Assembly: GCA_016191015.1 (NCBI GenBank)
Contig: JACPPM010000226.1
Location: forward strand, 1-37,565
Source: Acidobacteriota bacterium
Lineage (GTDB): Bacteria; Acidobacteriota; CAIWXX01
Length of the DNA: 37,565 bases
Reading direction: 5' to 3'
The number at the start of each line of letters is the position of its first letter. The first letter of the stretch is position 1. Position numbers and translations under genes: made by a program. A model generated the notes under the pieces. The model searched no databases, was not told the origin of the DNA, and worked only from the letters and a program-made list of their open reading frames with translations. Shown here in pieces: positions 11,551 to 37,565 of the stretch.

Positions 11551-12672
11551 ATGGCACGACCGCGGGCACGCGCATTCATTCTGGTCTGGGGCGTCTGGAC
11601 ACTCCTGGCCCTCTTATGGACGGGGCGGGAGATTCTCTTGCGGGGCGAGTTTGGAACAGAGTGGAAACGGAGTCTCTTCTGGAACCTGTTCAACTGGTAC
11701 GTCCTGGGGTCGCTCACGCCGCTCGTCATCTTGTTGACGCGGTCCGCTCGCCTGGGTCTTCACTCCTGGCCTCGTGTCCTCGCCGTCCATCTCGCCGGTC
11801 TTTGCCTCTTTACAGGCATCGCGGCAGGAGCTTACGTGCCCCTGGCCCGGCTCGTGGCGCATCTTGTCGACTTCGACAAAGCGATGGCTGCTCTCATCTC
11901 CGGAGGCACCGCAAAGGTCATCCTCGTCACGGGACCCTTTGATGCGATCATCTACGCAGCGATCGTCTCAGCCGCGTACGCCGTCGACTACTCGCGCCGA
12001 TATCGGGAACGGGAATTGCTGGCCTCGCAACTGGAAGCACAACTGGCTCAGGCCCAGCTGCAGGCACTCAAGACGCAGCTCCACCCTCACTTCCTCTTCA
12101 ACGCGCTCAACGCCATCTCTGCGCTCGTGCAGAAGGACTCGGATGCCGCCGATCGGATGATCGCGCGTCTGGCCGACCTTCTGCGTCACACGCTGAGGAC
12201 CAACGGCAATCAGGAGGTGACACTACAGAGCGAGCTGGCGCTTCTCGAAAAGTACGTCGAGATTCAAAAGGCGCGCTTTCAGGACCGTCTCGATGTCAAC
12301 TACAGCGTCGACCCTAACACCCTCGACGTCCTCGTCCCCAACCTGATCCTTCAACCGATCGTCGAGAACGCGATCCGACATGGGATCTCGGACAGCCCCA
12401 CGGGCGGGCAGATCGAGATCCGCGCGTCGAGGTCGGCCGGGTCTCTGACCGTGGAAGTAGTGGACAACGGGTGCGGGTTTCGCTCCGTGGAGGACGCGCT
12501 TCACGGGGAAGGGGTGGGGCTCGCCAACACCCGTGTCCGACTGCAGCGTCTCTACGGAGGCGATGACAGGTTGATCGTGAAGAACGATCCTGCGGGCGGC
12601 GCGGTGGTGCGCCTGAGCATACCGATCCGTGAGCGCGGCGAGCCTGTGGGCACTGGTGGACCTGGGAGGTGA
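11551..12672 (+). CDS. LytS/YehU-type sensor histidine kinase
   Basis: A 373-residue membrane histidine kinase. The N-terminal half carries about four hydrophobic segments (roughly residues 8-30, 44-63, 76-100 and 120-146) with little room for a periplasmic sensor domain. A coiled linker (ASQLEAQLAQAQLQALKTQ) leads into the His_kinase domain, with the phosphoacceptor His180 in LHPHFLFNALN. The ATPase part has PIVENAIRHG (Asn273), DNGCG (305-309) and GVGLANTRVRLQRLYG. The next gene encodes a LytTR response regulator 3 bp downstream, so the two form one operon and one signalling pair. A moderate AGG ribosome site precedes the ATG. The signal is unknown. Confidence 0.92.
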   Translation: MARPRARAFILVWGVWTLLALLWTGREILLRGEFGTEWKRSLFWNLFNWYVLGSLTPLVILLTRSARLGLHSWPRVLAVHLAGLCLFTGIAAGAYVPLARLVAHLVDFDKAMAALISGGTAKVILVTGPFDAIIYAAIVSAAYAVDYSRRYRERELLASQLEAQLAQAQLQALKTQLHPHFLFNALNAISALVQKDSDAADRMIARLADLLRHTLRTNGNQEVTLQSELALLEKYVEIQKARFQDRLDVNYSVDPNTLDVLVPNLILQPIVENAIRHGISDSPTGGQIEIRASRSAGSLTVEVVDNGCGFRSVEDALHGEGVGLANTRVRLQRLYGGDDRLIVKNDPAGGAVVRLSIPIRERGEPVGTGGPGR

Positions 12673-12675
12673 ACA

Positions 12676-13452
12676 ATGGCGATTCGCACGCTGATCGTGG
12701 ATGATGAGCCTCTGGCCCGGGACAGGGTCGCGGGGCTCCTCAAGGATCAGCCCGACATCGAGTGCATCGGGATGTGCTCCGACGGGCCGGCCGCCGTGGC
12801 AGCCATACTGCAGCGCTCCCCGGATCTGGTATTTCTCGATGTTCAGATGCCACGGATGGACGGGTTTGCGGTCCTGCAATCGATTCCTCCGGACAAGATG
12901 CCCGTCGTTGTCTTCGTGACCGCATTTGACGAATACGCGCTCCGCGCCTTCGAGGTCCACGCGTTGGACTACCTCCTGAAGCCGTTCGATCGCGCGCGAT
13001 TCATCGAAACGCTCGATCGGGTGCGAGATCACCTCCAGAATCGTGCCGGTCGGGATATCGAGCAGCGTCTTGCAGCGCTTATCCGGAGCGTGAATCCTGC
13101 ACACGAGTACCTCGAGCGCTTCGTCGTGAAGTCCGACAGGCGAATCTTCTTTATCAAGACTCAGGAGACCGACTGGATCGAGGCCTACGGCAACTACCTC
13201 CGCCTGCATACGGGGAAACAGTCACATCTCATCCGGGAAACCATGAACAGCATCGAGAGCAAGCTGGACCCGAGGAAGTTTATCCGCATCCATCGATCCA
13301 GCATGGTGAACATCGATCGCATCAAGGAAATGCGCCCGTGGTTCCATGGTGAGCACATTGTCGTCCTTCAGGACGGCACGGAGCTCACCCTGAGCCGGGG
13401 CTACCGTGACAGGCTGGAGGGACTCCTGGGTGAGCGCGAAGGAAGTACCTGA
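12676..13452 (+). CDS. LytTR-family response regulator
   Basis: A 258-residue DNA-binding response regulator. The receiver domain (about 1-120) has acidic pocket DDE (9-11), phosphoacceptor Asp55 in VFLDVQMP, Thr82 and Lys102. The LytTR DNA-binding domain (about 145-250) shows FVVKSDRRIFFIKTQETDWIEAYGNY, FIRIHRSSMVNIDRI and LTLSRGY, all typical. The start ATG has a strong GGGAGGTG site that overlaps the end of the kinase gene. Its partner is the upstream LytS-like kinase. Targets cannot be assigned; LytTR proteins often autoregulate or control cell-surface and transport genes. Confidence 0.94.
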   Translation: MAIRTLIVDDEPLARDRVAGLLKDQPDIECIGMCSDGPAAVAAILQRSPDLVFLDVQMPRMDGFAVLQSIPPDKMPVVVFVTAFDEYALRAFEVHALDYLLKPFDRARFIETLDRVRDHLQNRAGRDIEQRLAALIRSVNPAHEYLERFVVKSDRRIFFIKTQETDWIEAYGNYLRLHTGKQSHLIRETMNSIESKLDPRKFIRIHRSSMVNIDRIKEMRPWFHGEHIVVLQDGTELTLSRGYRDRLEGLLGEREGST

Positions 13453-22167: not shown

Positions 22168-23448
22168 TCATCGCGAGTTGCACGGGCCTAGCGCGGCCAG
22201 CCGGCCATCCAGAAAACGGCGGACCGGCTCGGTGCAGGGGAAGCTAAGCGCCGCAGCGTAGTAGGAAGCAGCTTTCTCGCGGTCGCCCAGCTCCTCCCAC
22301 AGCTCGGCCAGCGTCGCCGGCAGCAGCGGGTAGCGTTGGAGCGCAGGATGATCGACGATCTCTTCGATCGCGTGGATCCCCGCCTCTGGGCCGCGAAGCT
22401 GGGAGAGCGCGACGGCCCGGTTGAGCGCGACGACGGGCGAAGGGTTGATTTCCATGAGCCGGTCGTAGAGGCTCAGAATCTGCTCCCAGTCGGTTTCAGC
22501 GTAGCTCGCGGCGAGCGCATGAGCAGCGGCGATGCCTGCCTGGAGGTGGTACTCGCTGATCTCGCCACCCGCTTCGCTCGACGCGAGGCGTCGCAGCCCC
22601 TCGAAGATCAGATCCCGGTCCCAAAGCGTCCGATCCTGGTCGCGGAGAAGCAGCAGGTCGCCTCGGGAGCTGGTCCGAGCGGGCAGGCGTGCGGATTGAA
22701 GGAGCAGGAGCGCGAGCAGGGCATGAGCCTTCGGCGTGCCAGTATAGGGGTGGTTCGCGACGAGCGAGGCCAGCCGCACGGCTTCTTCGCACAAATCGTC
22801 GCGAACGAGCCACTCGCCTTCGAGCGCACTGTAGCCTTCATTGAAGAGGAGGTAGATCGTCTCGAGCACCGACTCGATTCGTCCGGGCAGCTCGCCGGGT
22901 TGGGGCATTTCGATCGGGAGGTTCGCGTCGCGGATCAGACGCTTGGCGCGGACGAGGCGCTGGGCCACGGCGGGCTCGAGCGACAGGAATGCGCGGGCGA
23001 TCTCCCGGACGCCGAAGCCACCGACGGTCTTCAAGGTGAGGGCCACGCGCGATTCGCGCGGTATCGCCGGATGGCAACACATGAACATCATGGCAAGCTC
23101 GTCGTCCGCCAGTGCGCCGGCGGGCCGAGGGTGGTGGTCGAGCGGCGGCGCGAATTCCTTCTGGAGCTCAGCAGTCTTTGATGCCAGTGTGGAGTGGCGC
23201 CGGAGGTGATCCAGGGCGCGGTTCTTGGCGACCTGGATGAGCCACGCGGCTGGGTTTTCGGGAACGCCGCGGAAGGGCCAGAGCTGCAGGGCCTTCAGGA
23301 GTGCTTCCTGCACGACCTCCTCTGCCAGATCCATGTTGCGCGCGCCGAGAATCCGCGTGAGAGTCGAGATCATCTGTCCCGCCTGGCGGCGAAACAGATG
23401 CTCGACCAGCTCGGGAACCGGAGCGCCGTCAGAGTCGGGCATGTGCAT
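22168..23448 (-). CDS. ECF42-type RNA polymerase sigma factor with C-terminal extension
   Basis: A 426-residue sigma-70 family factor, far longer than a usual ECF sigma (about 180). Region 2 is seen in LAEEVVQEALLKALQLWPFRGVPENPAAWLIQVAKNRALDHLRR. Region 4 is LTLKTVGGFGVREIARAFLSLEPAVAQRLVRAKRLIRD. The long C-terminal part starts with ESVLETIYLLFNEGYSA and contains TPR-like helices (AGIAAAHALAA; NPSPVVALNRAVALSQLRG; LAELWEELGDREKAASYYAAAL), the layout of ECF42 factors. These have no classical anti-sigma factor and are encoded beside DGPF/YCII proteins, as here: the partner is 18 bp upstream on the same strand. A second in-frame ATG lies two codons in; neither has a strong ribosome site. Confidence 0.9.
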   Translation of the reverse strand: MHMPDSDGAPVPELVEHLFRRQAGQMISTLTRILGARNMDLAEEVVQEALLKALQLWPFRGVPENPAAWLIQVAKNRALDHLRRHSTLASKTAELQKEFAPPLDHHPRPAGALADDELAMMFMCCHPAIPRESRVALTLKTVGGFGVREIARAFLSLEPAVAQRLVRAKRLIRDANLPIEMPQPGELPGRIESVLETIYLLFNEGYSALEGEWLVRDDLCEEAVRLASLVANHPYTGTPKAHALLALLLLQSARLPARTSSRGDLLLLRDQDRTLWDRDLIFEGLRRLASSEAGGEISEYHLQAGIAAAHALAASYAETDWEQILSLYDRLMEINPSPVVALNRAVALSQLRGPEAGIHAIEEIVDHPALQRYPLLPATLAELWEELGDREKAASYYAAALSFPCTEPVRRFLDGRLAALGPCNSR

Positions 23449-24615: not shown

Positions 24616-27600
24616 ATGCACATCAGACTCTTAGCGCCATTCTCTCTCGCGTTTTTCTCCGCAGTCGCCGGCGGTCACTCCATCTGGGCCGCAGTCGCCG
24701 AAGCGCCACCGGCTGAGCTGAGTCGGACCAAATTCGATGCGCGTGGCCGGCAGGAGGCGATCCTTACCGTGAACCAATTCGGTCGCTACGCGCTCTCGAC
24801 CAGAAGCGGCCAGGGCACATCGCTCCAGGTCGTCGATCGGATGATGGGCCCGGCGGACATCGCAGGGGAGGCCGGGGTGAGAGATGGCAGAGTCGACGCT
24901 TTCTTCGAAGCGGGCACGTACAAAATCGTCACCCGCTCCCACAAAGACGGGCGCGGAACGGTCGATCTCAACGTGCGCTCCTTCAAAGAAATCAATCAGC
25001 CTCAGGCGCCGCTCCTGATCGAGTACAAGCCGATCGACGCCACCCTCGAGGACTGTCAGCAGATGTCCTACTGGCTCGAAATCAAGGAACGACGTTTTGT
25101 CTACATCGAAGCCGAAGGGCGCGATCTTGCCGACGTCCGCCTCTGGCAGGACGGCACATGGCTGCTCGACGTGGCGCCGGATACGACTGTGCGGGAGAGC
25201 GTTGGAGGCCACCCTCAAACCTACTGCGCGGTCGTGGCTGATCTGAATCCCGGACTCTACCTCGTCACCGCCTACGGCGGCGTGCCGCAGCCCTGGGCAA
25301 AAGAAACAAATGAGCATCCCTTCCACCTGCGCTACGGCGTGCCGGTCTTGCCGACGAATTCCGACACTCTGACGCGCCTCTCTTCATTCGGCATGGACCG
25401 CTACTTCGTCCCGAAGGAATGCGACTTCTTCTTTCTGCAGCTTCAGGAGAAGAAGGACTTCCGGTTGCAGGTACAGCCTGCTACGAGCGGCGATCATTTT
25501 GGAGAGCCCCGGTACAGCGCCGTGATCAACAAGAAGTCACAGGACCCGGAATGCCTCGTCACCAAAGACGACGGCTCACTCCCCGCCATCGTCACGGTCA
25601 GCGGTCCTCCCGGAGAGATCTATGAGCTGCAGATCTTCCAGCGCCAATGGCGCCTCGCCTTCGATCGGCCCGGTGACCACTGGCTTTCCACGATCCACTC
25701 GGGGCACGTGGAAGACAACATCGATGCCACGGGCTTCCTGGTGGCGGAGGTCTCCGGATCGCCCGACCGGCCTGCCACTTTGGCCACCGCCGACGTGATC
25801 GCGCTCGGATCGGGAAAGAACTGGTCGCGACGGTTCAATCTGCTCGGCGACGAAGACATCTTCTTCTTCATTGAAGAGGCCGGGGACTACGAAGTGAAAT
25901 CCGCCGGGACGGCCGCCTCATTCCGCTTCGTCCCGGCGATCCAGCATCACGTGGAAGGGTTCGAGGCGCCGGCGATGAAGGCGGGCGGCGGCCTCTTCTC
26001 GCTCGACCGCGGCATGTGGCTCCTCGAGATCCACGCGGATCAGAAGGGCATCTTGAAGGTGGCGGTGCAGAAAGCAGGCGGCGTCATGAGCCGCCTGTTC
26101 GAGATGCTCTCATCCGACGAGCCGTCCGACTTTCAGCCCGCCAAAGGCAACGTTCAGTTGAACAAGATCCAATATGATCCGAAGCTCACGTACACACTCT
26201 GGACCAACACGCAGTTCGGCGTCGAGCATGGGTTGATCGTGCGCCCGTACCCACTCAGCCTCGCCGACGCTCTTCCCGTTGTCCTGCGGCCGGGTCAGGA
26301 GCAGACGATCGAATTCACCACCGCCGAAGATTCCCAGCTCATCATCACAACCGGTCCGAGGCCCGTCTACTCGCTGACTGTCGACGGACGCGGATGCCAG
26401 GAGAGCTGCCCCGTGGCGCAAGGTCCACACACTCTCGTCTTCAAGAACAACGGAACGAAGACCAGGCTGTTCTCACTCCGCACCGTTCCGACGCGCCTGC
26501 TCCCGGACAGCAGCCCCCGCTACCTCGACAGCACGGCCCTGCAAGCTCTCCCCAAATTCCCGGTGCTGGCGGAGCAGTCGCCGCAGTACGCCGACTTCGG
26601 CGTCGCGGAGAAGAAGACCTTCATCTTGAACGTTGCCTCGCCGGCTCTTTACAAGATCGAAACAACGGGCCTTTTGAAAACCGCGATCTCGGTTCGTACC
26701 CGATCCAGGATCAAGCTGTTCTCTGCGGAAGCCAACGGCATCGCTCGCAACGCGCTCGTCCAGCAGTATTTGAAAGAGGGTGAATATCAGGTCACCGCGC
26801 AGACGCTCGATCGCTCAGCGGGCCACGCCGGCATCAGATTGGTCCGGACTGATGTGGTCGACGGAGGCGCGTTGACCATCGGCAAGATGGCCAAGAACGC
26901 GGTTCCGGCTGGCTCGGCGGTACAATACACCTTCGAAATCCCCAAGATCGCCGGCTACCAGATCACCACGATCGGCCAGAACAAGTCGTACCATTGCAGA
27001 CTCGAAGACAAGGACAACTGGCCGCTGAGAGATCCCAACGGCGCAACCGGCTTCACCGACGACTACACTCCAGGCACCTATCGGTACATGACCCTCCCGT
27101 GGGACGTCGATACGCTTCGGGTGACAAGGCTGGAGGAAGTAGTGCCGCCGCGGCAGGCCGAGGGACACGGCCCGCACGCCCTACAGCTCGACGTTCCACT
27201 CGAGAACACATGGCGGGAGAGCCCTGCGGGTTCCGCGAGACAACGCGATCTCTATGACATCACGATCCCCGCGCGGCTCGATGCCACCATCACGCTCGGT
27301 AGCGATCAGATGCAGGGGTTTCTGAAAAAGAAAAACGGCGAAGATTACGTCATGGTCGATACCGCACCGCCGGGCAAGGCGTGGACGGGTGCGCTCGACA
27401 TGGGCGACTATCGCCTCGAGGTCGAATGCAGCCGGCCCAACGATCATCTCTCGTACTCGGTCCTCGTGAGCGCCGCCCAGCTCGTCGACGGCTCCGCCCG
27501 GACAATCAGTGCGCCCGGAACGATCGAGGTCAGTGTCGGAACGGAGGGGACGGTCGAGCTGTCGTCCGAGGGGACGCTGGATGTCCGCGGGGCCGTGCTG

Positions 27601-29901
27601 TCCGGCCCCGGCGGAGACATGATCGACACAAACGATGATTCTTTCAACGATTGGAACTTCACGATCGCGCGCCGCCTCCCGGCCGGCAAGTACGTGCTTC
27701 AAGTTGATCCAGTCGGGAAGCAGAGTGGGGATACGACGGTCGCGATGCGGATCCCGGCGGAGGTCAGGCGCGAGGCCGCAGCGATTCCAGGAGACCAGAC
27801 GATCGCGCTCGAAGGAAAGATCAACATCCTCCCGATACCGCCATTGGGAGGCCGCGACCTGCTTGATGTGCGAGCCAGTGGCTCGTCGTTCCTCGGATGT
27901 GTTCTCGAGAGAGTCGATGGTGCCAATGTCACACCCGTGGCCCAGGAGATCGGCCGCGCATGCCGATTGACGGCCGCGGTCGACGCTTCCGCCGCCTACC
28001 AGATCAGGTTGTGGTCGGCGGACCATCAGAGCGAGACGGCGAGACTTCAGATTCAGGCCCTCGCAGCCGGTGTCGTGCCCTTCGCCGATCTGGAGCGTTC
28101 GGTCGAGCTGGTCCCGCAGACGTCCGCGGGCGCCCATGTAGCGGCGGTGACGCTCGACGTGCCCGCCGCCGGGACGTTCCGCGTCGAGCGCTCGGGCGAT
28201 CTCCGCTACGGCACCTCATCCGATCCGTCGCTGACTCCTGCCGAGAGCGACCTGATAGCGCTTCCCGCAGGACTCGTGAAGCTGGCATGGGACTGCAAGG
28301 GCCCGAGCCCGGTGCGGATCAAGGCGAGCAGGTATGTCCTGGATAGTACCCCGGCAGGCGGCTACAGGACCACCATCTCGCGATCACAGCCGCAATCGAT
28401 CGATCTGGCGAACGGCCTCGGTGGCGTGACGGTCCTCACCGCTGAGTCCGTCACCGCTCTCCCGGCTTGCGCGTTCACGGCCGCCGGCGATCGACTCGGC
28501 GCCTATTCCATGACTCAGACCGCCTGCGTGTCCGTAGCGTCTGCCGGGACGCCGTTGAAGGCCAGAATCTGGGACGCGTCATCCACCGGCCCGGCTTCCT
28601 CGCTCTTCACAATCAGGCTGCACAACTTCGGCAAGCCGGGTCAGCCCACGGCACCGCTCCCTCCAGGTCAGATCCTCGAGAAGCTCAACGGCAGCGACCA
28701 GCGCCTCTGGACGCTCCCCGCCGGCGGCAAGCAGATCGATGTGACTCTCGACCCCGGCCTGGTCGCCTTCACCTTCGATGGGAGCGGCGTCTCCGATGTC
28801 GCCTCAGCTCGCGACACCTCCATACAGCACACCTTCGTCACCACCGCCGCGCAGCTCGGTATCGTCAACACTTCTCCGAATCCAGCCTCCTGCAAGGTGA
28901 CGATCCTGAAGAGGGACCCGCAGTCCTTCGAGCTCGAGCTAGCTGCCGGGGAGCCGTTCGAAACCGTCGCGTCTCTCGCCGGCTCGTTCCGGCTGCGGCT
29001 GCCCGCCACTCTCTCGCAGACCCCCGAAGCCGTACTCTCCGTCGCGGGCAACGGCGTCGTCGGCGAATGGACCGACGAACAAGGCGTCGTGCACACCGGC
29101 GATACGTTCGAGGTCGGCGGACATCAGGGATTCGTGACGATCACGCACGCGCCGGGTCTGGTCAAGGCATGGATCGCAGAAAAAGGCGCGCACCAGCGCG
29201 GCCGCTGGGGATCGCTGCCCGAAGCTCCCATTGTTCCCGCGCAGAACGACAGCGCCCTTGTGCTCGACGCCGACGTCCACTGGTACGGCATCAGCCTCTC
29301 GAACCCGTCGGTCATCCATCTGGCCGGCACGCAGCCGGCGGTCGTGGCCATCAGCCGGCGGCTCGAGAATGGCCCGCCGCCGGCGAGCGTCTCCGCCTTT
29401 CTGCAATTGACGGGCCGGAACGACCCGTTCGTGCGAGTGGTCGAGGCCCTTCCGGTCGACCACTTCCTCCTCCCGGGCAACTACGTGATCGGTGTCCGCG
29501 CCATACGCGGCGGCAGGCTCTCGGGCACGATCACCTGTTCGGCGCAGCCCATCCGCCCGATCGGCCCGGACGAATGGATCCTCGCGGGCGGAGAGGCCGA
29601 GACGTTCTACTTCGAGGTGCACGAGAAGAGTTGGATCGGGATCGGAGTGAAAGCCGATCGCGATGCCGTTGACTGCGCGCTCCTGACGAAGGAGGAGCGG
29701 CTTCTCGGCCGGGGGATCCAGCAGTTCGTCCAGATCGATCCGGGCACGTACCTGCTTCGCCTCACACTGCCGCCCGGTGAAGCGCCCGTCCACTACAAGC
29801 CCGTCGTTCTCGGTCTCGAGCCGCCCGGCATCGGACCTCCTCTAGACTACCTGCGGGAGTTCTTTGTCCAGATCGGCCTGACTGAAGGAGGTGCGCAATG
29901 A
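24616..29901 (+). CDS. Very large secreted protein of unknown family, probable alpha-2-macroglobulin partner
   Basis: A 1761-residue exported protein that I do not recognise. GGGAG lies 5 nt before the ATG, and the first ~27 residues form a signal peptide. There is no lipobox and no further membrane segment, so it should be periplasmic, outer-membrane-bound by contact, or secreted. The whole length is beta-rich and built from repeating units of one plan: a strand such as YTFEIPKIAGYQITTIG or FILNVASPALYKIETTG, then 40-60 residues later a strand with (L/F)xxGxYxL, such as FEAGTYKIVTR, LKEGEYQVTA, LDMGDYRLEV, LPAGKYVLQV and IDPGTYLLRL. This recalls pre-peptidase C-terminal (PPC)-like beta-sandwich domains, with perhaps ten or more copies. 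No protease or other catalytic motif was seen. Its stop overlaps the macroglobulin start (ATGA, 29898-29901), so the two are coupled. A role as scaffold or ligand binder for the macroglobulin is inference. Confidence 0.85.
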   Translation: MHIRLLAPFSLAFFSAVAGGHSIWAAVAEAPPAELSRTKFDARGRQEAILTVNQFGRYALSTRSGQGTSLQVVDRMMGPADIAGEAGVRDGRVDAFFEAGTYKIVTRSHKDGRGTVDLNVRSFKEINQPQAPLLIEYKPIDATLEDCQQMSYWLEIKERRFVYIEAEGRDLADVRLWQDGTWLLDVAPDTTVRESVGGHPQTYCAVVADLNPGLYLVTAYGGVPQPWAKETNEHPFHLRYGVPVLPTNSDTLTRLSSFGMDRYFVPKECDFFFLQLQEKKDFRLQVQPATSGDHFGEPRYSAVINKKSQDPECLVTKDDGSLPAIVTVSGPPGEIYELQIFQRQWRLAFDRPGDHWLSTIHSGHVEDNIDATGFLVAEVSGSPDRPATLATADVIALGSGKNWSRRFNLLGDEDIFFFIEEAGDYEVKSAGTAASFRFVPAIQHHVEGFEAPAMKAGGGLFSLDRGMWLLEIHADQKGILKVAVQKAGGVMSRLFEMLSSDEPSDFQPAKGNVQLNKIQYDPKLTYTLWTNTQFGVEHGLIVRPYPLSLADALPVVLRPGQEQTIEFTTAEDSQLIITTGPRPVYSLTVDGRGCQESCPVAQGPHTLVFKNNGTKTRLFSLRTVPTRLLPDSSPRYLDSTALQALPKFPVLAEQSPQYADFGVAEKKTFILNVASPALYKIETTGLLKTAISVRTRSRIKLFSAEANGIARNALVQQYLKEGEYQVTAQTLDRSAGHAGIRLVRTDVVDGGALTIGKMAKNAVPAGSAVQYTFEIPKIAGYQITTIGQNKSYHCRLEDKDNWPLRDPNGATGFTDDYTPGTYRYMTLPWDVDTLRVTRLEEVVPPRQAEGHGPHALQLDVPLENTWRESPAGSARQRDLYDITIPARLDATITLGSDQMQGFLKKKNGEDYVMVDTAPPGKAWTGALDMGDYRLEVECSRPNDHLSYSVLVSAAQLVDGSARTISAPGTIEVSVGTEGTVELSSEGTLDVRGAVLSGPGGDMIDTNDDSFNDWNFTIARRLPAGKYVLQVDPVGKQSGDTTVAMRIPAEVRREAAAIPGDQTIALEGKINILPIPPLGGRDLLDVRASGSSFLGCVLERVDGANVTPVAQEIGRACRLTAAVDASAAYQIRLWSADHQSETARLQIQALAAGVVPFADLERSVELVPQTSAGAHVAAVTLDVPAAGTFRVERSGDLRYGTSSDPSLTPAESDLIALPAGLVKLAWDCKGPSPVRIKASRYVLDSTPAGGYRTTISRSQPQSIDLANGLGGVTVLTAESVTALPACAFTAAGDRLGAYSMTQTACVSVASAGTPLKARIWDASSTGPASSLFTIRLHNFGKPGQPTAPLPPGQILEKLNGSDQRLWTLPAGGKQIDVTLDPGLVAFTFDGSGVSDVASARDTSIQHTFVTTAAQLGIVNTSPNPASCKVTILKRDPQSFELELAAGEPFETVASLAGSFRLRLPATLSQTPEAVLSVAGNGVVGEWTDEQGVVHTGDTFEVGGHQGFVTITHAPGLVKAWIAEKGAHQRGRWGSLPEAPIVPAQNDSALVLDADVHWYGISLSNPSVIHLAGTQPAVVAISRRLENGPPPASVSAFLQLTGRNDPFVRVVEALPVDHFLLPGNYVIGVRAIRGGRLSGTITCSAQPIRPIGPDEWILAGGEAETFYFEVHEKSWIGIGVKADRDAVDCALLTKEERLLGRGIQQFVQIDPGTYLLRLTLPPGEAPVHYKPVVLGLEPPGIGPPLDYLREFFVQIGLTEGGAQ

Positions 29902-32900
29902 CCGTCCGCTTCCCGCTCACAACCAGAGACACAATCATGATCACCGCACTGCCGCTCCTTCTGGCAGCTCTGGCCGGCGCCGCGACCCCAGTCAATCCGA
30001 CTCCCGGCAAGCTCACGATCATTCCGGAGACCTTCGTGCGAGGGTACGACCCCGTGACAGTGTTCTTCGCCGGCGCGACCGGTCCCGGCACGGACGTGCC
30101 TGAGGACCATCCTGAGAAATACGTGAAAGTCTCTCCGTCGCACCCGGGCGAATTCCGCTGGATCGACCCGAGCACCCTGATCTTCAAGCCGGCTGTCCCC
30201 TGGCCGCCGCTCATGCGCTTTCGCTGGACGGCCGGGAGCACGACGAGAACGCTGACGACCATGATGATCCAGCCCGTGGCCATCACACCGTCCGATGGGA
30301 CGACGGGTCTGGATCCCATCGAGGAGCTCACGATTGCGTTCCGCGAGCCGATCGACGTGAAGGATCTCGCGAAGATGGTCACCTTCGAGATCCGAAGATT
30401 GCCCGGTGTCGGGAAGGGGAATGCGCGGTGGCTGACCTCGGAGGACTACGCGATCAAACCCGTGGAACGCGGGTCGCTCAAAGACCAGGCGAGCTACGTC
30501 TTCAGATTCACACGGCCGATCGAAGCCGGGATGAAAGCTGTCCTCCACATCCGGCTCTCGCTGGACGACACCTCTCCGGATTCACTCGTCGAGTACTCAT
30601 TCTCCACAAAAGAGGTGTTTCGCATCCTGGCGGCGGGGTGCGTGGCCGAATCCGAATCGACACCGCAGTCGTGGAGAGAGCGGCCATCATCTTATGAGGA
30701 AGAGGAATACGAGGAGGAAGAGTATGAGGGCGACGACGAGGATGAGGAGTACGAAGAAGAAGAGCAACCCGAGTACGACTACAGCCCATCATACGGCCGG
30801 AACATACTCCTCCCACTGACGACTTCGGGAACGAAATACACGAAAGAGCAGGCCGTCAACGGCGGGACCGGTACGCCGAAGATCGCCATCCAGTTTTCGG
30901 CAGAAATCGCACCGCTGTCACTGTCGGCCGTGAAGTCGCTCGTTCGCTTCTCGCCAACGATCCCGGAGATGAGCTTCACTCAATCAGGTCCGTATCTCTA
31001 CATCACGGGCAAGATGGCGAAAGAGACGGTCTACACCGCCACCATCTCGCCGTCGCCGATCAAGGACAAGACCGGCAGGTTGCTCACAATCGAAGGCCCC
31101 TCGCAGTTCTGTTTCTATTTTCCGCCACAGGCTCCATTCCTGCGCTGGTCGCAGAGCCAGGGGATCATCGAGCGATACGGGCCTCAGATGTTTCCGATGT
31201 CGGGTCGCGGCGACACGCGCGTCGACCTGCGAATCTACAAGGTCGATCCGCTGGATCGCAACTTCTGGCCGTTCCCCGAACAGGCCGTGATTGTGAACGA
31301 GATGGAGGCGCCCCCGGGGCCGGGTGAGGAGCCCGAGCCGGCCGAAAAGCTGCACGACTACCTTCACGCGGATCAGCTCGCCCTTCGCCTCAAAAACATC
31401 GGCGCACCGCCCGTTTCGAAGATCGTCACGGTTCCACTGCGCAAGGAAGGCGGCACGACTCAGTTCGGATTGGCGCTCAAGGAGCACCTGCAGGCCATTT
31501 CCGGTCCGGCTGAGCCCGGCACGTACATTGTCGGTGTGAGACGGCTCAGCGAGGAATCGCAACGCACCTATGTACGCGTCCAGGTGACGGATCTGAGCCT
31601 GACCACGGTCGAGGAGGAAAGGGCGATCGAGTTCCTGGTGACCTCGCTGAAAACAGGCTCGCCCGTCCCCACCGCGACGGTGCTGGTCGAAGGAATTCCG
31701 GAGGGATCGAAAAGCAACGCGTACGAGGCTCTGATCACCGGTGTCACCGACGAGCGCGGGTTGTTCCGTTGGGAGCACAAAGGCCGGATCAAGGCGGATC
31801 TCCGACGGATCATCGTGAGGAACGGCAAGGATACGCTCGTCCTCATGCCGGATGACCCGCCGTACTCGTTCGCCGACAATCATTGGTACGGCCCGCACGG
31901 CACCTGGCTCGAATGGATCACGAATGATCCGTACAAAGACCCGGAAGCGTCGACTCGCATGTGCCACATCCTCACCGAACGGCCGGTCTACCGGCCTGAG
32001 GAAGAGGTCCACATCAAGGGCTACCTGCGCCTGCGCGAACGGGGCCGGCTCACAATCCCGGCGTCCCGCAAGTACGAGATCCTGATCACTGCGCCGGGTG
32101 AGAAGCTCTGGACATTTCCCGTGGAGATCACCGCTGAAGGGAGCTTTTATTTCAAGTTTCAGGAGAAGGAGCTGCCGACCGGCGTCTACACGGCAACTCT
32201 CAGGGACATCGAGGATCAGGAGGAATACGGATCGGTAGACTGGAAAATGGAGGCCTACAAGATCCCGCGCTTTGAGGTGTTGATTCACGGACCGGATCGC
32301 GTGCCGATGGACCGCGAGCTCGAAATGTCGGCCACCGCCAGCTACTACGCGGGTGGCAGAGTCGTCGGCCAACCCGTGCTGTGGCGCGTCACGCAGTTCC
32401 CGTATGCGTATGTGCCCGAGCAGCGAGCGGGGTATCTGTTCTCTTCGGATGAGCGGTTCAGCAGACCGGGGCGCTTTACCAGCACGGGGGCGATCGAGAA
32501 AAGCGACAAGACCGACGACTCGGGCGCCACGAAGATCTCGGTGAATCCAGCGCTGGAAATCGACGCGCGGCCACGGCAGTACATCTTCGAGGTCACGATC
32601 ACCGGCGCCGACGATCAGACCGTCTCCCAGACACGCCAGGTCCTGGCTCTCCCGCCGTTTGTGCTCGGGCTCCAAGTCGACCGCTTCATCAAGAACAGCA
32701 AAACGATCAGCCCGAAGATTATCGCGATCGACGTCGACAACAACCTGCTCGCAGGACAGGAGGTCTCCGTGCGGCTGCTCGCTCGCGAGTGGCATTCGCA
32801 CCTGCGTGAGACCGACTTCGCCGACGGTATTCCGAAATATGTCACCGATATGGTCGATCGCGAGGTCTCGACGACAACGATCTCAACAACAGACAAGCCG

Positions 32901-35828
32901 GTGTCTCTCGATCTCAATGTCGACAAGGCCGGGATCTACGTCGTCGAGCTCTCGTCGCGCGACAAGATCGGCCGGCTCCAGCTCGTCACCGCCGATCTCT
33001 ACGTGGCCGGCGACGAACCTGTGACTTGGAAGAAACCCGATGCCAACGTCTTCGAAACGACGACCGACAAGAAAGAATACGTGGCGGGCGAAACGGCGCA
33101 GATCCTTCTGAAAAGCCCCTTCCAGCAAGCGTCGGCCCTGGCCGTCATCGAAGGTCCCGACGGCAACATCTACCAGGAAATCCAGGTCACGGGCGGCAAG
33201 GCGGTCTTTACGCTCCCGATCAAGAACGAATACAACCCGCGCGTTCCGGTGCACTTCGTCCTCATGCGCGGCCGGATCTCTTCGGGGCTCGCGGCGGGCA
33301 GCAATCTGGATCTCGGGAAGCCTCAGACGATGGCCGCCACGCAATGGCTCAAGGTCGACCCCGCCGACAACAAGATGAATATCGAGCTCAAACATCCCGA
33401 GAAAGCCATGCCCGGCCAGACGATCACAATGCAGATCAAGCTCGCAACACCGGGCGGCAAGCCGCTCCCGGGTGAAGTCACGCTGTGGCTTGTGGACCAG
33501 GCCGTTCTCTCTCTCGGAAAGGAAAAGCGGCTCGATCCGCTGCCGTCCTTCATCAAGGATGTGGGCTCGCATATCTCCGTGCGCGACACGCGCAACAAGA
33601 TCATCGGTGAGATCGCCACCGTCGAAGGCGAGGGCGGCGGCGGGGCCGAAGAGGAACCGGACCTGCTCGGGAAGGTCACGATCCGCAAGGAGTTCAAGAC
33701 CGTCCCCTACTACAACCCGCGCATCATGGTGGACAAGACCGGTGTGGTCGAGATCCAGATCAAGCTCTCGGACGATCTCACGAACTTCAAGGTGCGCGCG
33801 GTGGCCTGCAGCGGACCCGACCGATTCGGGTTTGCGAAGTCCACGATCGCGGTGCGGCTGCCGGTGATCGTGCAACCGGCGCTGCCGCGGTTCGTGCGGA
33901 TCGGCGATGAGCTCGTCGCGGGTGGGATCGGACGCATCGTCGAAGGCGAAGGGGGGCCGGGGAGCTGCCAGGTTCAGGTCGACGGCGCAACGCTCGGCGG
34001 CGGCACGACCCGCTCCCTGCAGTGGATCAAGGACAAGCCGGAACGACTGTACTTCCCGATGACAGTCGGGGTGCCGGCGGGCGGCAAGAAGGACAATCTC
34101 ACACTCCGGCTCGCCGTCAAACGAGACTCCGATGGGGCGGCCGACGCCTTCGAAGTGAGTATCCCTGTACTGTCGGACCGCGATCCGGTGAGGCAGGAGA
34201 TCTTCAAGCGACTCGAGCTCGGAAAGAGCGCCTCGTTCCCGGCGGTGACCGAGAAGACGAGGCCGGGCAGCTTCAGCCAGTCTCTGCTGATCACGGATCA
34301 GGAGGCGCTGTTGAGGATGATCAGCGGGCTCGATTACCTCTATAGCTACACCCATCTGTGCACCGAGCAGCGAGTCAGCCAGACGTACCCGGCGATCGCG
34401 CTCAAGGGTATCTACGACACGTTCAAGATCAGGGCGCCCGAAGAGAAAATCAACGAGCTCCTGACGTACACGTTCGACTACCTGGGCAAGACGCTCCAAC
34501 CGAACGGGCTGTACTCGTATTGGCCCGGCGGCAAGGGCTACGTGACGCTCACGGCGCAGGTGGTCGAGTTCCTGGCTGAGGCGAAGAGGAGCGGCTATCA
34601 GTTCCAGCCAAAGCTGCTCGAGCGACCCGTGGCGGCGCTGAAGCAGGCGCTGCGCTCGGACTACGCGTATTTCATCGACGGATGGGCATGGATGGAGCGA
34701 TCCGAGGCTCTGATGGCGCTCAGCGCGGCCGGCGAGTTCGACGCGTCATACGGCAGTGAGCTCGGCCGGAAGGCCGGCTTCCTCGACCTCTACAGCGAGG
34801 CCAAGGTGCTGTCGGCCTTCACGTTCGGCCAGAAGGCGAGCAAGAGCGTCACCGATGGGCTGCGCAAGGACCTCTGGGATAACACGGTGATCAAGCTGAG
34901 GGATGGACACGAAGTCTATGGCGGCTTGCAATCGCGCATCAAAAGCTGGGGAGGGCTCGTGCTCACCTCCGAGATCAAGACGCAGGCGGCCATGATCCGC
35001 GCTCTCTATCCGACTGACGCGCAGAACCCGAAGATGCAGCTCATGCTGAGCGATCTCATCGAACGCGGCCAGAAGGACGGGTGGGGAAACACCAACACCA
35101 ACTCGGCGGCGCTGCTGGCTCTGCGCGACGTGTTGATGTCGACGAAGACCGACCGGAAGCCCGCTGACTTCAAGGTGTCGTTCGGGGACAGCAGGGAGAG
35201 CCTGCACATCGGACCAGACCAGCCAACCGCCTCCATCACGACACGCGACGCGCGGCCGGCGGCGATCGAAATGACGCAGGGGCATGGCAATGTCTTCGCG
35301 CGGATGACGGTGACATATGTGCCGGCGGCCACAGGCGAGACGGTGGCTGCGAAAAGCGACGGGTTCGTCGTGCGCCGCGAGATCGTCCGCGTGAGTCACG
35401 ATGCGTCGCCATCAGTCAAAGAGTGGATCGAGAAGGCGGGGGTGACGTTTGAGCACACCGTGGGTGATGTGGTCGAAGAACACATCCAGATCGTGAACCC
35501 CGAGGACCGCAACTACGTGGCGGTCGTGGGGCCGTTCGCGGCGGGGATGGAACCGCTGAACCCGAACCTGGCGACCGCACCTCAGGAGGCCAGACCGGCC
35601 GGGACGAACACGCTCGAGGCTACATACGCGATGTACCTCGATGACGAAGTCCGTTTCTACTTCGAAACGCTGCCGAAGGGGACGTACGACTTCTACTTCA
35701 GGGTGCGAGCGAGCACCGAGGGGTCGTTCGTGCATCCGCCGGCACGGGCCGAGATGATGTATCAGCCGACAGTGCGGGGAAACTCCGTGGGCGCGCGGTT
35801 CGTGATCCACGCGACGAAGGAGCAGTGA
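29898..35828 (+). CDS. Bacterial alpha-2-macroglobulin family protein with CTEQ thioester motif
   Basis: A 1976-residue periplasmic protease trap. A strong AAGGAGGTG site precedes the ATG; an in-frame ATG at 29937 would give a more compact signal peptide (MITALPLLLAALAG). There is no lipobox, unlike the E. coli lipoprotein YfhM. Macroglobulin domains fill the N-terminal two-thirds, with the usual LTERPVYRPEEEVHIKGYLR segment at about 690. The core A2M region includes EVTLWLVDQAVLSL and DLTNFKVRAVA. The thioester site is Cys1488-Thr-Glu-Gln1491 in THLCTEQ, followed by the alpha-toroid domain (DGWAWMERSEALMALSA; DGWGNTNTNSAALLAL). The C-terminus is a receptor-binding-like beta domain. Residues 266-299 are an odd acidic, Tyr-rich insert. 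The gene is coupled to the upstream 1761-residue protein, and pbpC follows, the known partner that remakes peptidoglycan where a trapped protease has breached the wall. Confidence 0.92.
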   Translation: MTVRFPLTTRDTIMITALPLLLAALAGAATPVNPTPGKLTIIPETFVRGYDPVTVFFAGATGPGTDVPEDHPEKYVKVSPSHPGEFRWIDPSTLIFKPAVPWPPLMRFRWTAGSTTRTLTTMMIQPVAITPSDGTTGLDPIEELTIAFREPIDVKDLAKMVTFEIRRLPGVGKGNARWLTSEDYAIKPVERGSLKDQASYVFRFTRPIEAGMKAVLHIRLSLDDTSPDSLVEYSFSTKEVFRILAAGCVAESESTPQSWRERPSSYEEEEYEEEEYEGDDEDEEYEEEEQPEYDYSPSYGRNILLPLTTSGTKYTKEQAVNGGTGTPKIAIQFSAEIAPLSLSAVKSLVRFSPTIPEMSFTQSGPYLYITGKMAKETVYTATISPSPIKDKTGRLLTIEGPSQFCFYFPPQAPFLRWSQSQGIIERYGPQMFPMSGRGDTRVDLRIYKVDPLDRNFWPFPEQAVIVNEMEAPPGPGEEPEPAEKLHDYLHADQLALRLKNIGAPPVSKIVTVPLRKEGGTTQFGLALKEHLQAISGPAEPGTYIVGVRRLSEESQRTYVRVQVTDLSLTTVEEERAIEFLVTSLKTGSPVPTATVLVEGIPEGSKSNAYEALITGVTDERGLFRWEHKGRIKADLRRIIVRNGKDTLVLMPDDPPYSFADNHWYGPHGTWLEWITNDPYKDPEASTRMCHILTERPVYRPEEEVHIKGYLRLRERGRLTIPASRKYEILITAPGEKLWTFPVEITAEGSFYFKFQEKELPTGVYTATLRDIEDQEEYGSVDWKMEAYKIPRFEVLIHGPDRVPMDRELEMSATASYYAGGRVVGQPVLWRVTQFPYAYVPEQRAGYLFSSDERFSRPGRFTSTGAIEKSDKTDDSGATKISVNPALEIDARPRQYIFEVTITGADDQTVSQTRQVLALPPFVLGLQVDRFIKNSKTISPKIIAIDVDNNLLAGQEVSVRLLAREWHSHLRETDFADGIPKYVTDMVDREVSTTTISTTDKPVSLDLNVDKAGIYVVELSSRDKIGRLQLVTADLYVAGDEPVTWKKPDANVFETTTDKKEYVAGETAQILLKSPFQQASALAVIEGPDGNIYQEIQVTGGKAVFTLPIKNEYNPRVPVHFVLMRGRISSGLAAGSNLDLGKPQTMAATQWLKVDPADNKMNIELKHPEKAMPGQTITMQIKLATPGGKPLPGEVTLWLVDQAVLSLGKEKRLDPLPSFIKDVGSHISVRDTRNKIIGEIATVEGEGGGGAEEEPDLLGKVTIRKEFKTVPYYNPRIMVDKTGVVEIQIKLSDDLTNFKVRAVACSGPDRFGFAKSTIAVRLPVIVQPALPRFVRIGDELVAGGIGRIVEGEGGPGSCQVQVDGATLGGGTTRSLQWIKDKPERLYFPMTVGVPAGGKKDNLTLRLAVKRDSDGAADAFEVSIPVLSDRDPVRQEIFKRLELGKSASFPAVTEKTRPGSFSQSLLITDQEALLRMISGLDYLYSYTHLCTEQRVSQTYPAIALKGIYDTFKIRAPEEKINELLTYTFDYLGKTLQPNGLYSYWPGGKGYVTLTAQVVEFLAEAKRSGYQFQPKLLERPVAALKQALRSDYAYFIDGWAWMERSEALMALSAAGEFDASYGSELGRKAGFLDLYSEAKVLSAFTFGQKASKSVTDGLRKDLWDNTVIKLRDGHEVYGGLQSRIKSWGGLVLTSEIKTQAAMIRALYPTDAQNPKMQLMLSDLIERGQKDGWGNTNTNSAALLALRDVLMSTKTDRKPADFKVSFGDSRESLHIGPDQPTASITTRDARPAAIEMTQGHGNVFARMTVTYVPAATGETVAAKSDGFVVRREIVRVSHDASPSVKEWIEKAGVTFEHTVGDVVEEHIQIVNPEDRNYVAVVGPFAAGMEPLNPNLATAPQEARPAGTNTLEATYAMYLDDEVRFYFETLPKGTYDFYFRVRASTEGSFVHPPARAEMMYQPTVRGNSVGARFVIHATKEQ

Positions 35829-35864
35829 TTCGCCGGGGTACTGATCGTGACCGTACGAACTGAC

Positions 35865-36148
35865 CCACCAAGACACCAAGGCACAAGGAAGACGCCGGCC
35901 TTGTTGTCTAGATTCGTGGTTGTTTGCAGGAAATGGCGAAAAGTTCGAAGCAGGGACATTTTTCGGACTCTTCTCAAAACGGCAGGGAGGGAGGACTGCA
36001 CGAACGCATCCGACATCTCTGATACTCAGGGTGGCACGGAACGCTCTCACGCTCCACGCTCCAGGCCCGCGAAGCGGGCTGGACGCTCTCACGCCCGGCG
36101 AAGCCGCAACCGCGTGGTTGCGGCTTCGCCTCCTTGGTGTCTTGGTGG
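35865..36148. repeat. 284-bp element with perfect 17-bp inverted ends
   Basis: CCACCAAGACACCAAGG (35865-35881) is mirrored exactly by CCTTGGTGTCTTGGTGG (36132-36148). It starts 37 bp after the macroglobulin stop and contains element B copy 2. Its right end runs into the frame of pbpC. It has the look of a small non-autonomous insertion, but no target-site duplication was identified. Confidence 0.65.
36039..36130 (+). repeat. Interspersed element B, copy 2 (nested)
   Basis: Same parts as 13456-13573, on the opposite strand: GAACGCTCTCACGC, the core hairpin GCCCGC-GAA-GCGGGC, GGACGCTCTCACGC, and a terminal hairpin AAGCCGCAACC-GCGT-GGTTGCGGCTT (36101-36126), an 11-bp perfect stem. It lies wholly inside the 284-bp inverted-end element. 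Confidence 0.65.
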
Positions 36149-37565
36149 TTGGCGGCGTTCGGGTCTTGTTGTTGCATCGGTCGTGATCCTGATCGCGGTC
36201 GCATCCACCTGGCAGGGCTTGCGCGTCGGGATGACGCTGGAAGCGCCGGCGCCGACGCTGCTGTTCGAGGATGTGCGCGGGCGATATTTGGCCGAGATCA
36301 GCCAGGACGAACGGCGCAATGGGTACTGGCCGGTGCCCGAGGAGATCCCGCCGAAAGTGCTGGCGGCGACGCTGGCTGCTGAAGACGCGCGCTACTACGA
36401 ACATGGAGGCGTGGACGCGCGCGCCGTGCTGCGAGCGCTCTATCAGAACGTCAGCAATCGCCGTATCGTCTCGGGTGCCTCGACGATCGCGATGCAGGTC
36501 GCTCGGATTGAACGGCCCGGCCGAAGGTCGCTCGTGAACAAGCTCAGTGAGGCCGTCGTTGCCGGTGGGCTCGTTCGCAAGTACGGCCATGACATAGTCT
36601 TGCGGCACTACTTGCTGATTGCCCCGTACGGCAACCAGAACTACGGAATCGTGTATGCGGCAAGGCGGTACTTTGCCAAGCCGCTCGCGGATCTGACCTG
36701 GGCCGAGGCGGCTTTGCTGGCGGCCCTTCCAAAATTGCCCGGGCGGATGAACCTGTATAAGTTCGATGGCTGGCACGCGGCGACACAGCGCGCGCGGTAC
36801 GTGCTCGATCGCCTCTGGCAGCTCGACGTGATCGACGATCGCGAGTACACCGAGGCGATCATGCTCCTGCCGCAATTGCGGCCGTCGGTGAAGGAGACGC
36901 GTCCGCCTGCGTGCCTGCATGCGATTCTGCAGATCCGGGAGTACCTCGAATCGCATCCGGCCGCGTGGAATCAGCCTACCCGGCGCCCGATCGTGCGCAC
37001 ATCGATCGACCTCGATCTGCAGGACGAAGTCAGCTCCATGGCCTGGGAAATGATGCAGGGGTTCCGCCGGGACGGCGCCGGGAATCTCGCCGTGATCGTG
37101 GCGGAACGAGCGAGCGGCAACATCGTTGCCTACCTGGGCTCTGAGGATTACTACGACAAGGAGAACAAGGGAGCCATCGACTACGCCGATGTGCCCAGGT
37201 CGAGCGGCAGCACGCTCAAGCCGTTCATCTACGGGCTCGGGATGCAGGTCAAAGGCTACACCGCGGCGACACTGCTGACTGACACGGGTCTGGCGCTGGA
37301 TGCCCACGCGGGTGCGTACACGTTCAAGAATTACGACGAGTCGTTTCAGGGGCCGATTCTCTATCGCAACGCGCTCGGCAACAGCCGCAACATTCCTGCG
37401 GCGCAGGTGCTGCAGGCCGTCGGCATCGATGTCGCATACCGGCACTTCTGCGATCTGGGCCTGATCCGCGTGCGCGAAAACCCGGCGCGCTACGGGCTCG
37501 GCATGTCGATCGGTGGGCTCTACGTGACTCTCGCGGATCTGGTGAGGGCCTATGGCATCCTCGCC
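36114..37565 (+). CDS. pbpC: Penicillin-binding protein 1C, 3' truncated by window edge
   Basis: A bifunctional peptidoglycan glycosyltransferase/transpeptidase of the PbpC type, anchored in the inner membrane. A hydrophobic anchor preceded by RR (WRRSGLVVASVVILIAVAST) needs a start well upstream of the GTG at 36183; the GTG at 36114 is the best in-frame candidate, but it lies inside the repeat and has no ribosome site. The glycosyltransferase domain has catalytic Glu90 in AAEDARYYEHGGVD, SGASTIAMQVAR, and Glu146 in NKLSE. The part that usually reads LExxxSKxEILxxYLN is degenerate (LVRKYGHDIVLRHYLL). The transpeptidase domain shows Ser366 in SSGSTLKPF (Lys369 the general base) and the SRN motif at 424-426. 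The KTG motif lies beyond the window. It follows the macroglobulin gene, its usual partner. Confidence 0.88.
   Translation, partial: MVAASPPWCLGGWRRSGLVVASVVILIAVASTWQGLRVGMTLEAPAPTLLFEDVRGRYLAEISQDERRNGYWPVPEEIPPKVLAATLAAEDARYYEHGGVDARAVLRALYQNVSNRRIVSGASTIAMQVARIERPGRRSLVNKLSEAVVAGGLVRKYGHDIVLRHYLLIAPYGNQNYGIVYAARRYFAKPLADLTWAEAALLAALPKLPGRMNLYKFDGWHAATQRARYVLDRLWQLDVIDDREYTEAIMLLPQLRPSVKETRPPACLHAILQIREYLESHPAAWNQPTRRPIVRTSIDLDLQDEVSSMAWEMMQGFRRDGAGNLAVIVAERASGNIVAYLGSEDYYDKENKGAIDYADVPRSSGSTLKPFIYGLGMQVKGYTAATLLTDTGLALDAHAGAYTFKNYDESFQGPILYRNALGNSRNIPAAQVLQAVGIDVAYRHFCDLGLIRVRENPARYGLGMSIGGLYVTLADLVRAYGILA

Follow-up and report, generated by a model that had tools for sequence, protein, structure and literature searches.

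A giant predicted β-sandwich-chain protein encoded beside, and co-inherited with, a divergent macroglobulin subfamily in Acidobacteriota and other bacteria

Bacterial macroglobulins, which trap proteases, resemble human complement and alpha-2-macroglobulin, and their placement and targets are unsettled. On contig JACPPM010000226.1 of an Acidobacteriota bacterium (assembly GCA_016191015.1), of which positions 1 to 37,565 were analysed (the window), a macroglobulin gene followed by pbpC, the gene for penicillin-binding protein 1C, is preceded by a gene for a protein of 1761 amino acids (the partner). This arrangement raises the question of what so large a protein does beside a macroglobulin. Partner and a divergent macroglobulin subfamily were found in the identical 34 genomes and in none of the remaining 646 of 680 surveyed, and the two genes adjoin in all readable loci but one. 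Together with the predicted architecture of the partner, these findings point to a major component, so far undescribed, of the macroglobulin-PbpC system in some soil and water bacteria.

The following features, all on the forward (+) strand, make up the operon:

24616..29901, +, partner gene, 1761 amino acids, ATG start, from the list of open reading frames (ORFs)
29885..29901, +, ribosome-binding site AAGGAGGT with the ATGA overlap of partner stop and macroglobulin start, read from the sequence
29898..35828, +, macroglobulin gene, 1976 amino acids, ATG start, from the ORF list; Pfam matches bMG10 (1e-29), A2M_BRD, the bait region (1.7e-19), and A2M (7.6e-10)
34359..34370, +, CTEQ thioester motif at residue 1488 of the macroglobulin, read from the sequence
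35847..37565, +, pbpC, 3' end beyond the window; matches to TIGR02073 (PBP_1c, NCBIfam, 1.9e-98) and Transgly (1.1e-44)

An earlier note on this DNA had described a 5.3-kb gene coupled by an ATGA overlap to a thioester-type macroglobulin gene with pbpC next, and the ORFs, the overlap and the Pfam and NCBIfam matches agree on this layout: the stop codon of the partner gene overlaps the macroglobulin start, with a clear AAGGAGGT ahead of the overlap. As pbpC runs into the end of the window and contig, its TIGR02073 match is partial and stays under the cut-off; the true start probably lies inside the frame that opens at 35847.

Full-length partner homologues are alignable in distant genomes at 50 % to about 25 % identity, so that the open frame of 1761 codons is not due to chance. 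They were detected in Acidobacteria, Aminicenantes, (delta)proteobacterial metagenome-assembled genomes (MAGs) and seven Rhizobium plasmids, the nearest one belonging to an Acidobacteria MAG; the (delta)proteobacterial MAG homologues are labelled Myxococcota in the tree, except L023 (Pseudomonadota). The survey sample comprised 396 Acidobacteriota genomes and 284 genomes of the phylum that contains locus L027 (Myxococcota side). The partner is present in 19 of the former, spread over 12 families, a fairer count than Fisher p-values, as these ignore shared ancestry, and in 15 of the latter. A macroglobulin gene lies directly downstream on the same strand in all 18 Acidobacteriota loci with enough sequence and directly downstream in 14 Myxococcota-side loci (32 readable loci altogether), and all five inspected Rhizobium plasmid loci display the order partner, MG2-domain protein, transglycosylase. 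The homologues thus adjoin macroglobulin genes, whereas the earlier note would have been contradicted by homologues residing mostly away from them. ATGA-type overlaps are present in many of the loci, even where partner identity has fallen to about 25-30 %. The pbpC gene comes next in 24 of the 32 loci where this could be judged, which makes the tie of the partner to the macroglobulin closer than that to pbpC.

On four other contigs the window genome harbours additional macroglobulins, all of them without a partner homologue. A 2042-amino-acid ORF near one of them was considered as a second partner and discarded, as it reads as an RHS-type protein; on this contig (C85; L016 1669-7797 and 132-914) the RHS-type ORF separates a macroglobulin gene from a macroglobulin fragment that lies where the contig begins. 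Pairs without pbpC downstream are those of L013/L019, L026, L059, L060, L101, L102, L104 and L105. Irregular loci were also encountered: on the plasmid of Rhizobium sp. C104 (L097, 11416-25391) the genes for partner, macroglobulin and transglycosylase are jointly fragmented, either through decay of the entire unit or through poor sequence, and two Aminicenantes loci contain a frame break in the macroglobulin gene (L055, identical to L020, 5275-11059) and a stop inside pbpC (L054, identical to L025, 13971-16439), respectively.

Co-occurrence was assessed by scoring genomes with a profile (A2) built from the linked macroglobulins. Some macroglobulin is present in 220 of the 396 Acidobacteriota genomes; the 19 partner-bearing ones score 1876-3288 bits, the window macroglobulin reaching 3288, and the next best genome attains 540. 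In the phylum of L027 the same 15 genomes hold partner and subfamily; their minimum, 713 bits, comes from a gene truncated at the end of its contig, and the next genome has 558 bits. The single genome with unlinked genes, G397, is a natural experiment, in which the pair persists without linkage: the partner is located on contig C17 (L024, 9896-19666) beside an IS630-like transposase ORF and without a macroglobulin, and the matching macroglobulin resides with pbpC on contig C6. Behind the partner gene of G397 lies another, partial copy of its C-terminal third. Linked and partner-free macroglobulins are split by one branch (SH-aLRT 94), independently of three partner-free rows with very long branches (L135, L136 and L139, wrong-frame ORFs); the partner tree has the same main groups as the macroglobulin tree, and the distances of the two proteins correlate with r = 0.96 over 29 loci. 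That the large protein is a dedicated partner of the macroglobulin, as proposed earlier, is strongly supported by the adjacency and the identical genome sets.

The linked macroglobulins differ from relatives without a partner. A lipobox pattern was absent from 33 of the 34 linked proteins, including that of the window, which appears to carry an ordinary signal peptide, and was ambiguous in L019; by eye, a lipobox is present in at least six partner-free relatives (L130-L134 and L140). The thioester cysteine is kept in 20 of the 34, among them all readable Acidobacteriota proteins; in the other 14, to which every Rhizobium protein belongs, it is replaced (SSEQ, SAEQ, STEQ, NVEQ and others). The partner is present where the cysteine is gone, hence its retention is independent of the thioester. 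Bacterial macroglobulins with thioester were reported to pair with PBP1c and those without thioester with the mag operon (PMC5764988); judged from the sequence motifs, this pairing fails in the partner-linked subfamily.

Comparison with the two described systems places the operon apart from both. It shares with type I (ECAM/YfhM of E. coli, Sa-A2M of Salmonella) the bait region, the adjacent pbpC and, in the window, the CxEQ thioester. E. coli ECAM carries a lipobox (PMC3328433), which is lacking here in the 33 proteins mentioned; further differences are the giant gene coupled upstream, the separate subfamily and the loss of the thioester in the 14 linked members although pbpC is often kept. 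With the type II mag operon of Pseudomonas (MagD, MagA, MagB and MagF) it has in common that the macroglobulin is co-encoded with apparently exported proteins; the window, however, encodes one partner of 1761 residues instead of several smaller ones, and possesses the CTEQ thioester and pbpC. By these features, the partner-macroglobulin operon is not of the mag type, given its thioester, and departs from the ECAM type by the missing lipobox and the presence of the partner.

The partner itself had been called unrecognised, and this holds for the libraries searched: there was nothing above threshold in Pfam and NCBIfam, nothing of note among PDB sequences, also when searched with the homologue profile A3, no match in phage records or in the PADLOC anti-phage library, and no macroglobulin partner of this kind in the open-access literature (subscription papers being outside the scope). 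A clear match to a known family of unrelated role, which would have spoken against the earlier note, was looked for and did not appear. The description does not extend to the building block, which is of a known type, a β-sandwich like those of pre-peptidase C-terminal (PPC) and collagen-binding domains (CBD). The features concerned are:

24616..24693, +, hydrophobic N-terminus, read by eye as an ordinary non-lipoprotein signal peptide
26539..26844, +, β-sandwich unit at residues 642-743, fold match to the PPC domain of a B. anthracis collagenase (5sv5)
27148..27474, +, β-sandwich unit, residues 845-953, matching the ColG collagen-binding domain s3b (2o8o)
27634..27660, +, NDDSFNDWNF-type motif (D1007, D1008, D1012-F1015) in a PPC-like context, from alignment A3

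Two overlapping half-models of the partner (residues 30-1062 and 745-1755) were computed with AlphaFold2 from nine-row alignments. With mean pLDDT values of 79.9 and 79.3, both are nearly all β and form a string of β-sandwiches; their pTM values of 0.61 and 0.47 mean that the domain arrangement is not to be trusted. Unit 642-743 aligns with 5sv5 at a VIA-align Z of 12.5 (rmsd 3.3, 100 aligned), and unit 845-953 with 2o8o at Z 13.2 and 12.9 (rmsd 1.9 Å, 98 aligned), independently in both models. The fold search covered these two units best and barely touched the others, those of the C-terminal third included. Related repeats emerged from profile-profile comparison (652-766 with 951-1065, E 2.2e-13; further stretches near 31-145, 583, 721 and 1549-1660), and the length would allow an estimated 15-17 units of about 105 residues. 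Residues D1007, D1008 and D1012-F1015 are invariant in nine homologues, W1013 and N1014 still in 27. Pfam PPC was matched by three of nine homologues (best E 8.2e-5) and by three of 27 (best 1.4e-4), not by the window protein, and the scores shown (21.4 and 20.9 bits) stay below the Pfam cut-off of 25.9; the NCBIfam DVUA0089 family matched seven of the 27 (best 3.4e-5). The best-tested units thus share their predicted fold with PPC (PF04151) and ColG s3b, and some homologues also give weak sequence matches. Unlike PPC and collagen-binding proteins, the partner forms a long tandem chain without a catalytic domain, all matches seen fall below the Pfam cut-off, and no enzyme domain was detected in the 27 homologues with Pfam and NCBIfam. 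Every homologue starts with a segment that by eye resembles a signal peptide. On sequence and models, the partner is best described as a putatively exported chain of tandem PPC/CBD-like β-sandwich domains.

Several other assignments were discarded. For both halves Foldseek lists macroglobulins, but with TM-scores of 0.05-0.09 and whole-chain rmsd near 40 Å; a hidden macroglobulin was rejected because chains of β-domains match chains of β-domains and the single-domain matches are to PPC and CBD. An MG2 match in the L066 partner (5.4e-6) is below the cut-off and was not counted towards a macroglobulin domain. Type IX secretion was considered owing to Por_Secre_tail matches (Pfam and NCBIfam) in alignment A6; the Pfam match is internal, at residues 941-990 of L066 and away from the C-terminus, and was therefore discarded as a cross-hit. 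With neither lipobox, sorting signal nor recognisable anchor found in the partner, the earlier suggestion that it presents the macroglobulin at the outer membrane is not borne out. Beside these, long acidic or glycine-rich C-terminal tails were noticed in the partners of L098 (e.g. DYDDYDEDMEEW), L057, L060, L059 and L026, not in the window protein. A lone PPC-like stretch (positions 959-1016 of the profile, E about 2e-6) also turns up in otherwise unrelated ORFs of 1250-1450 amino acids in four genomes of one Acidobacteriota genus (G167, G088, G134 and G309; L069-L072).

The reading preferred here, held with about evenly balanced confidence, is that the partner is a constitutive subunit which would bind and position the unlipidated macroglobulin in the periplasm. 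Both proteins would be made by coupled translation, and the partner, exported to the periplasm as a long β-sandwich chain, would bind the macroglobulin from the next gene and keep it in place, stable and cleavable. Its role would be the counterpart of the lipid anchor of ECAM, or of MagA, MagB and MagF for MagD; in Pseudomonas, MagD depends for its stability on proteins of its own operon, which form 1:1 complexes with it (PMC5764988). Pair and PBP1C, the latter acting in peptidoglycan repair, may jointly defend the envelope once proteases or enzymes that break the wall have crossed the outer membrane. If so, the system would have been missing a component nearly of macroglobulin size that occurs in exactly the macroglobulin's genomes and has escaped annotation. 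The versions on Rhizobium plasmids, one of which is predicted to be conjugative, provide culturable and genetically tractable hosts.

Several points weigh against this subunit role. Neighbourhood and co-occurrence argue for shared function, not for contact. The partner possesses no recognisable anchor by which it would hold the macroglobulin in its place. Folds of the PPC/CBD type are widespread, and matches to them show no function; PPC domains are usual in secreted enzymes and would also fit an extracellular location. Moreover, the subfamily profile was trained on linked macroglobulins; linked ones outside the training set still lie above the gap (Rhizobium, 1963-1993 bits; G355, 1944 bits).

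The strongest rival has the partner as a recognition arm, the β-sandwich units of which bind invading lysozymes, proteases or damaged wall and hand the attacker to the macroglobulin, the partner acting next to it and not as a passive scaffold. Units of a binding type, such as the ColG collagen-binding domain, would suit this role, as would a target-facing C-terminal half, which is the much more variable one (mean column identity 43 % versus 51 % in the N-terminal half). The fold matches include the periplasmic g-type lysozyme inhibitor PliG (4dzg, Z 10.8, rmsd 3.2 to one unit); PliG, however, is a single small domain without demonstrated sequence relation and just one of many β-sandwiches at similar Z. 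All five inspected Rhizobium partners have about 100 extra N-terminal residues of the LprI type (Pfam 7.3e-8 in L093, the other four by alignment and inspection), one of them being named "lysozyme inhibitor LprI family protein" by NCBI. LprI-domain proteins include M. tuberculosis LprI, and the domain was initially known from a lipoprotein of mycobacteria that confers resistance to lysozyme. In Salmonella, however, the LprI-domain protein ScwA resides in the periplasm and has an effect on peptidoglycan hydrolases, but plays no part in resistance to lysozyme (PMC7933661). In light of ScwA, the fusion supports a cell-wall setting rather than lysozyme inhibition as such; furthermore, it is confined to Rhizobium, Pfam LprI did not match the window protein, and no inhibitor motif was identified there. 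Recognition as the partner's role is rated as rather unlikely, albeit the data do not separate attacker recognition from the subunit or scaffold role. A single complex of giant PPC-repeat partner and unlipidated macroglobulin, in which the partner provides both recognition and placement and which continues to work after loss of the thioester, is tentatively entertained as a combined possibility; it would be a third architecture of macroglobulin defence in bacteria.

Alternatively, both proteins could be released to act outside the cell on proteases of prey, host or competitors, the partner serving, for example, as a carrier that adheres or binds to a matrix. Their apparently ordinary signal peptides without lipid anchor (one macroglobulin being ambiguous) are compatible with release, as is the typical occurrence of PPC-type domains in secreted bacterial enzymes. 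No outer-membrane secretion signal was found, however, the sorting-domain-like match in L066 being internal, and the frequent linkage to pbpC, which encodes an inner-membrane wall synthase, argues for the periplasm; release thus appears improbable. The position of the partner gene upstream of the macroglobulin gene, the translational coupling and the strict co-occurrence would also fit a factor needed only while the macroglobulin is synthesized, e.g. for folding or for shielding the bait region or thioester. Such a factor, however, would equal its client in size; the partner also persists in the absence of the thioester, and the pair survives uncoupled in G397, which renders this explanation quite improbable. 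An incidental neighbourhood, i.e. a PPC-repeat protein of unrelated role beside the macroglobulin gene, found no support beyond the occurrence of single PPC-like units in unrelated proteins (G088, G134, G167 and G309), and is refuted by the identical genome sets in two phyla, by order and coupling kept to roughly 25 % identity and by co-retention of the unlinked pair in G397, making it highly improbable.

Elsewhere in the window, a gene for an ECF-type sigma factor with DUF6596 is located at 22168-23448 (-), divergent from the operon; a sigJ gene occupies a similar place in the Rhizobium loci L094 and L097. Adjacent genes at 11551-13452 (+) encode a His_kinase and LytTR response-regulator pair.

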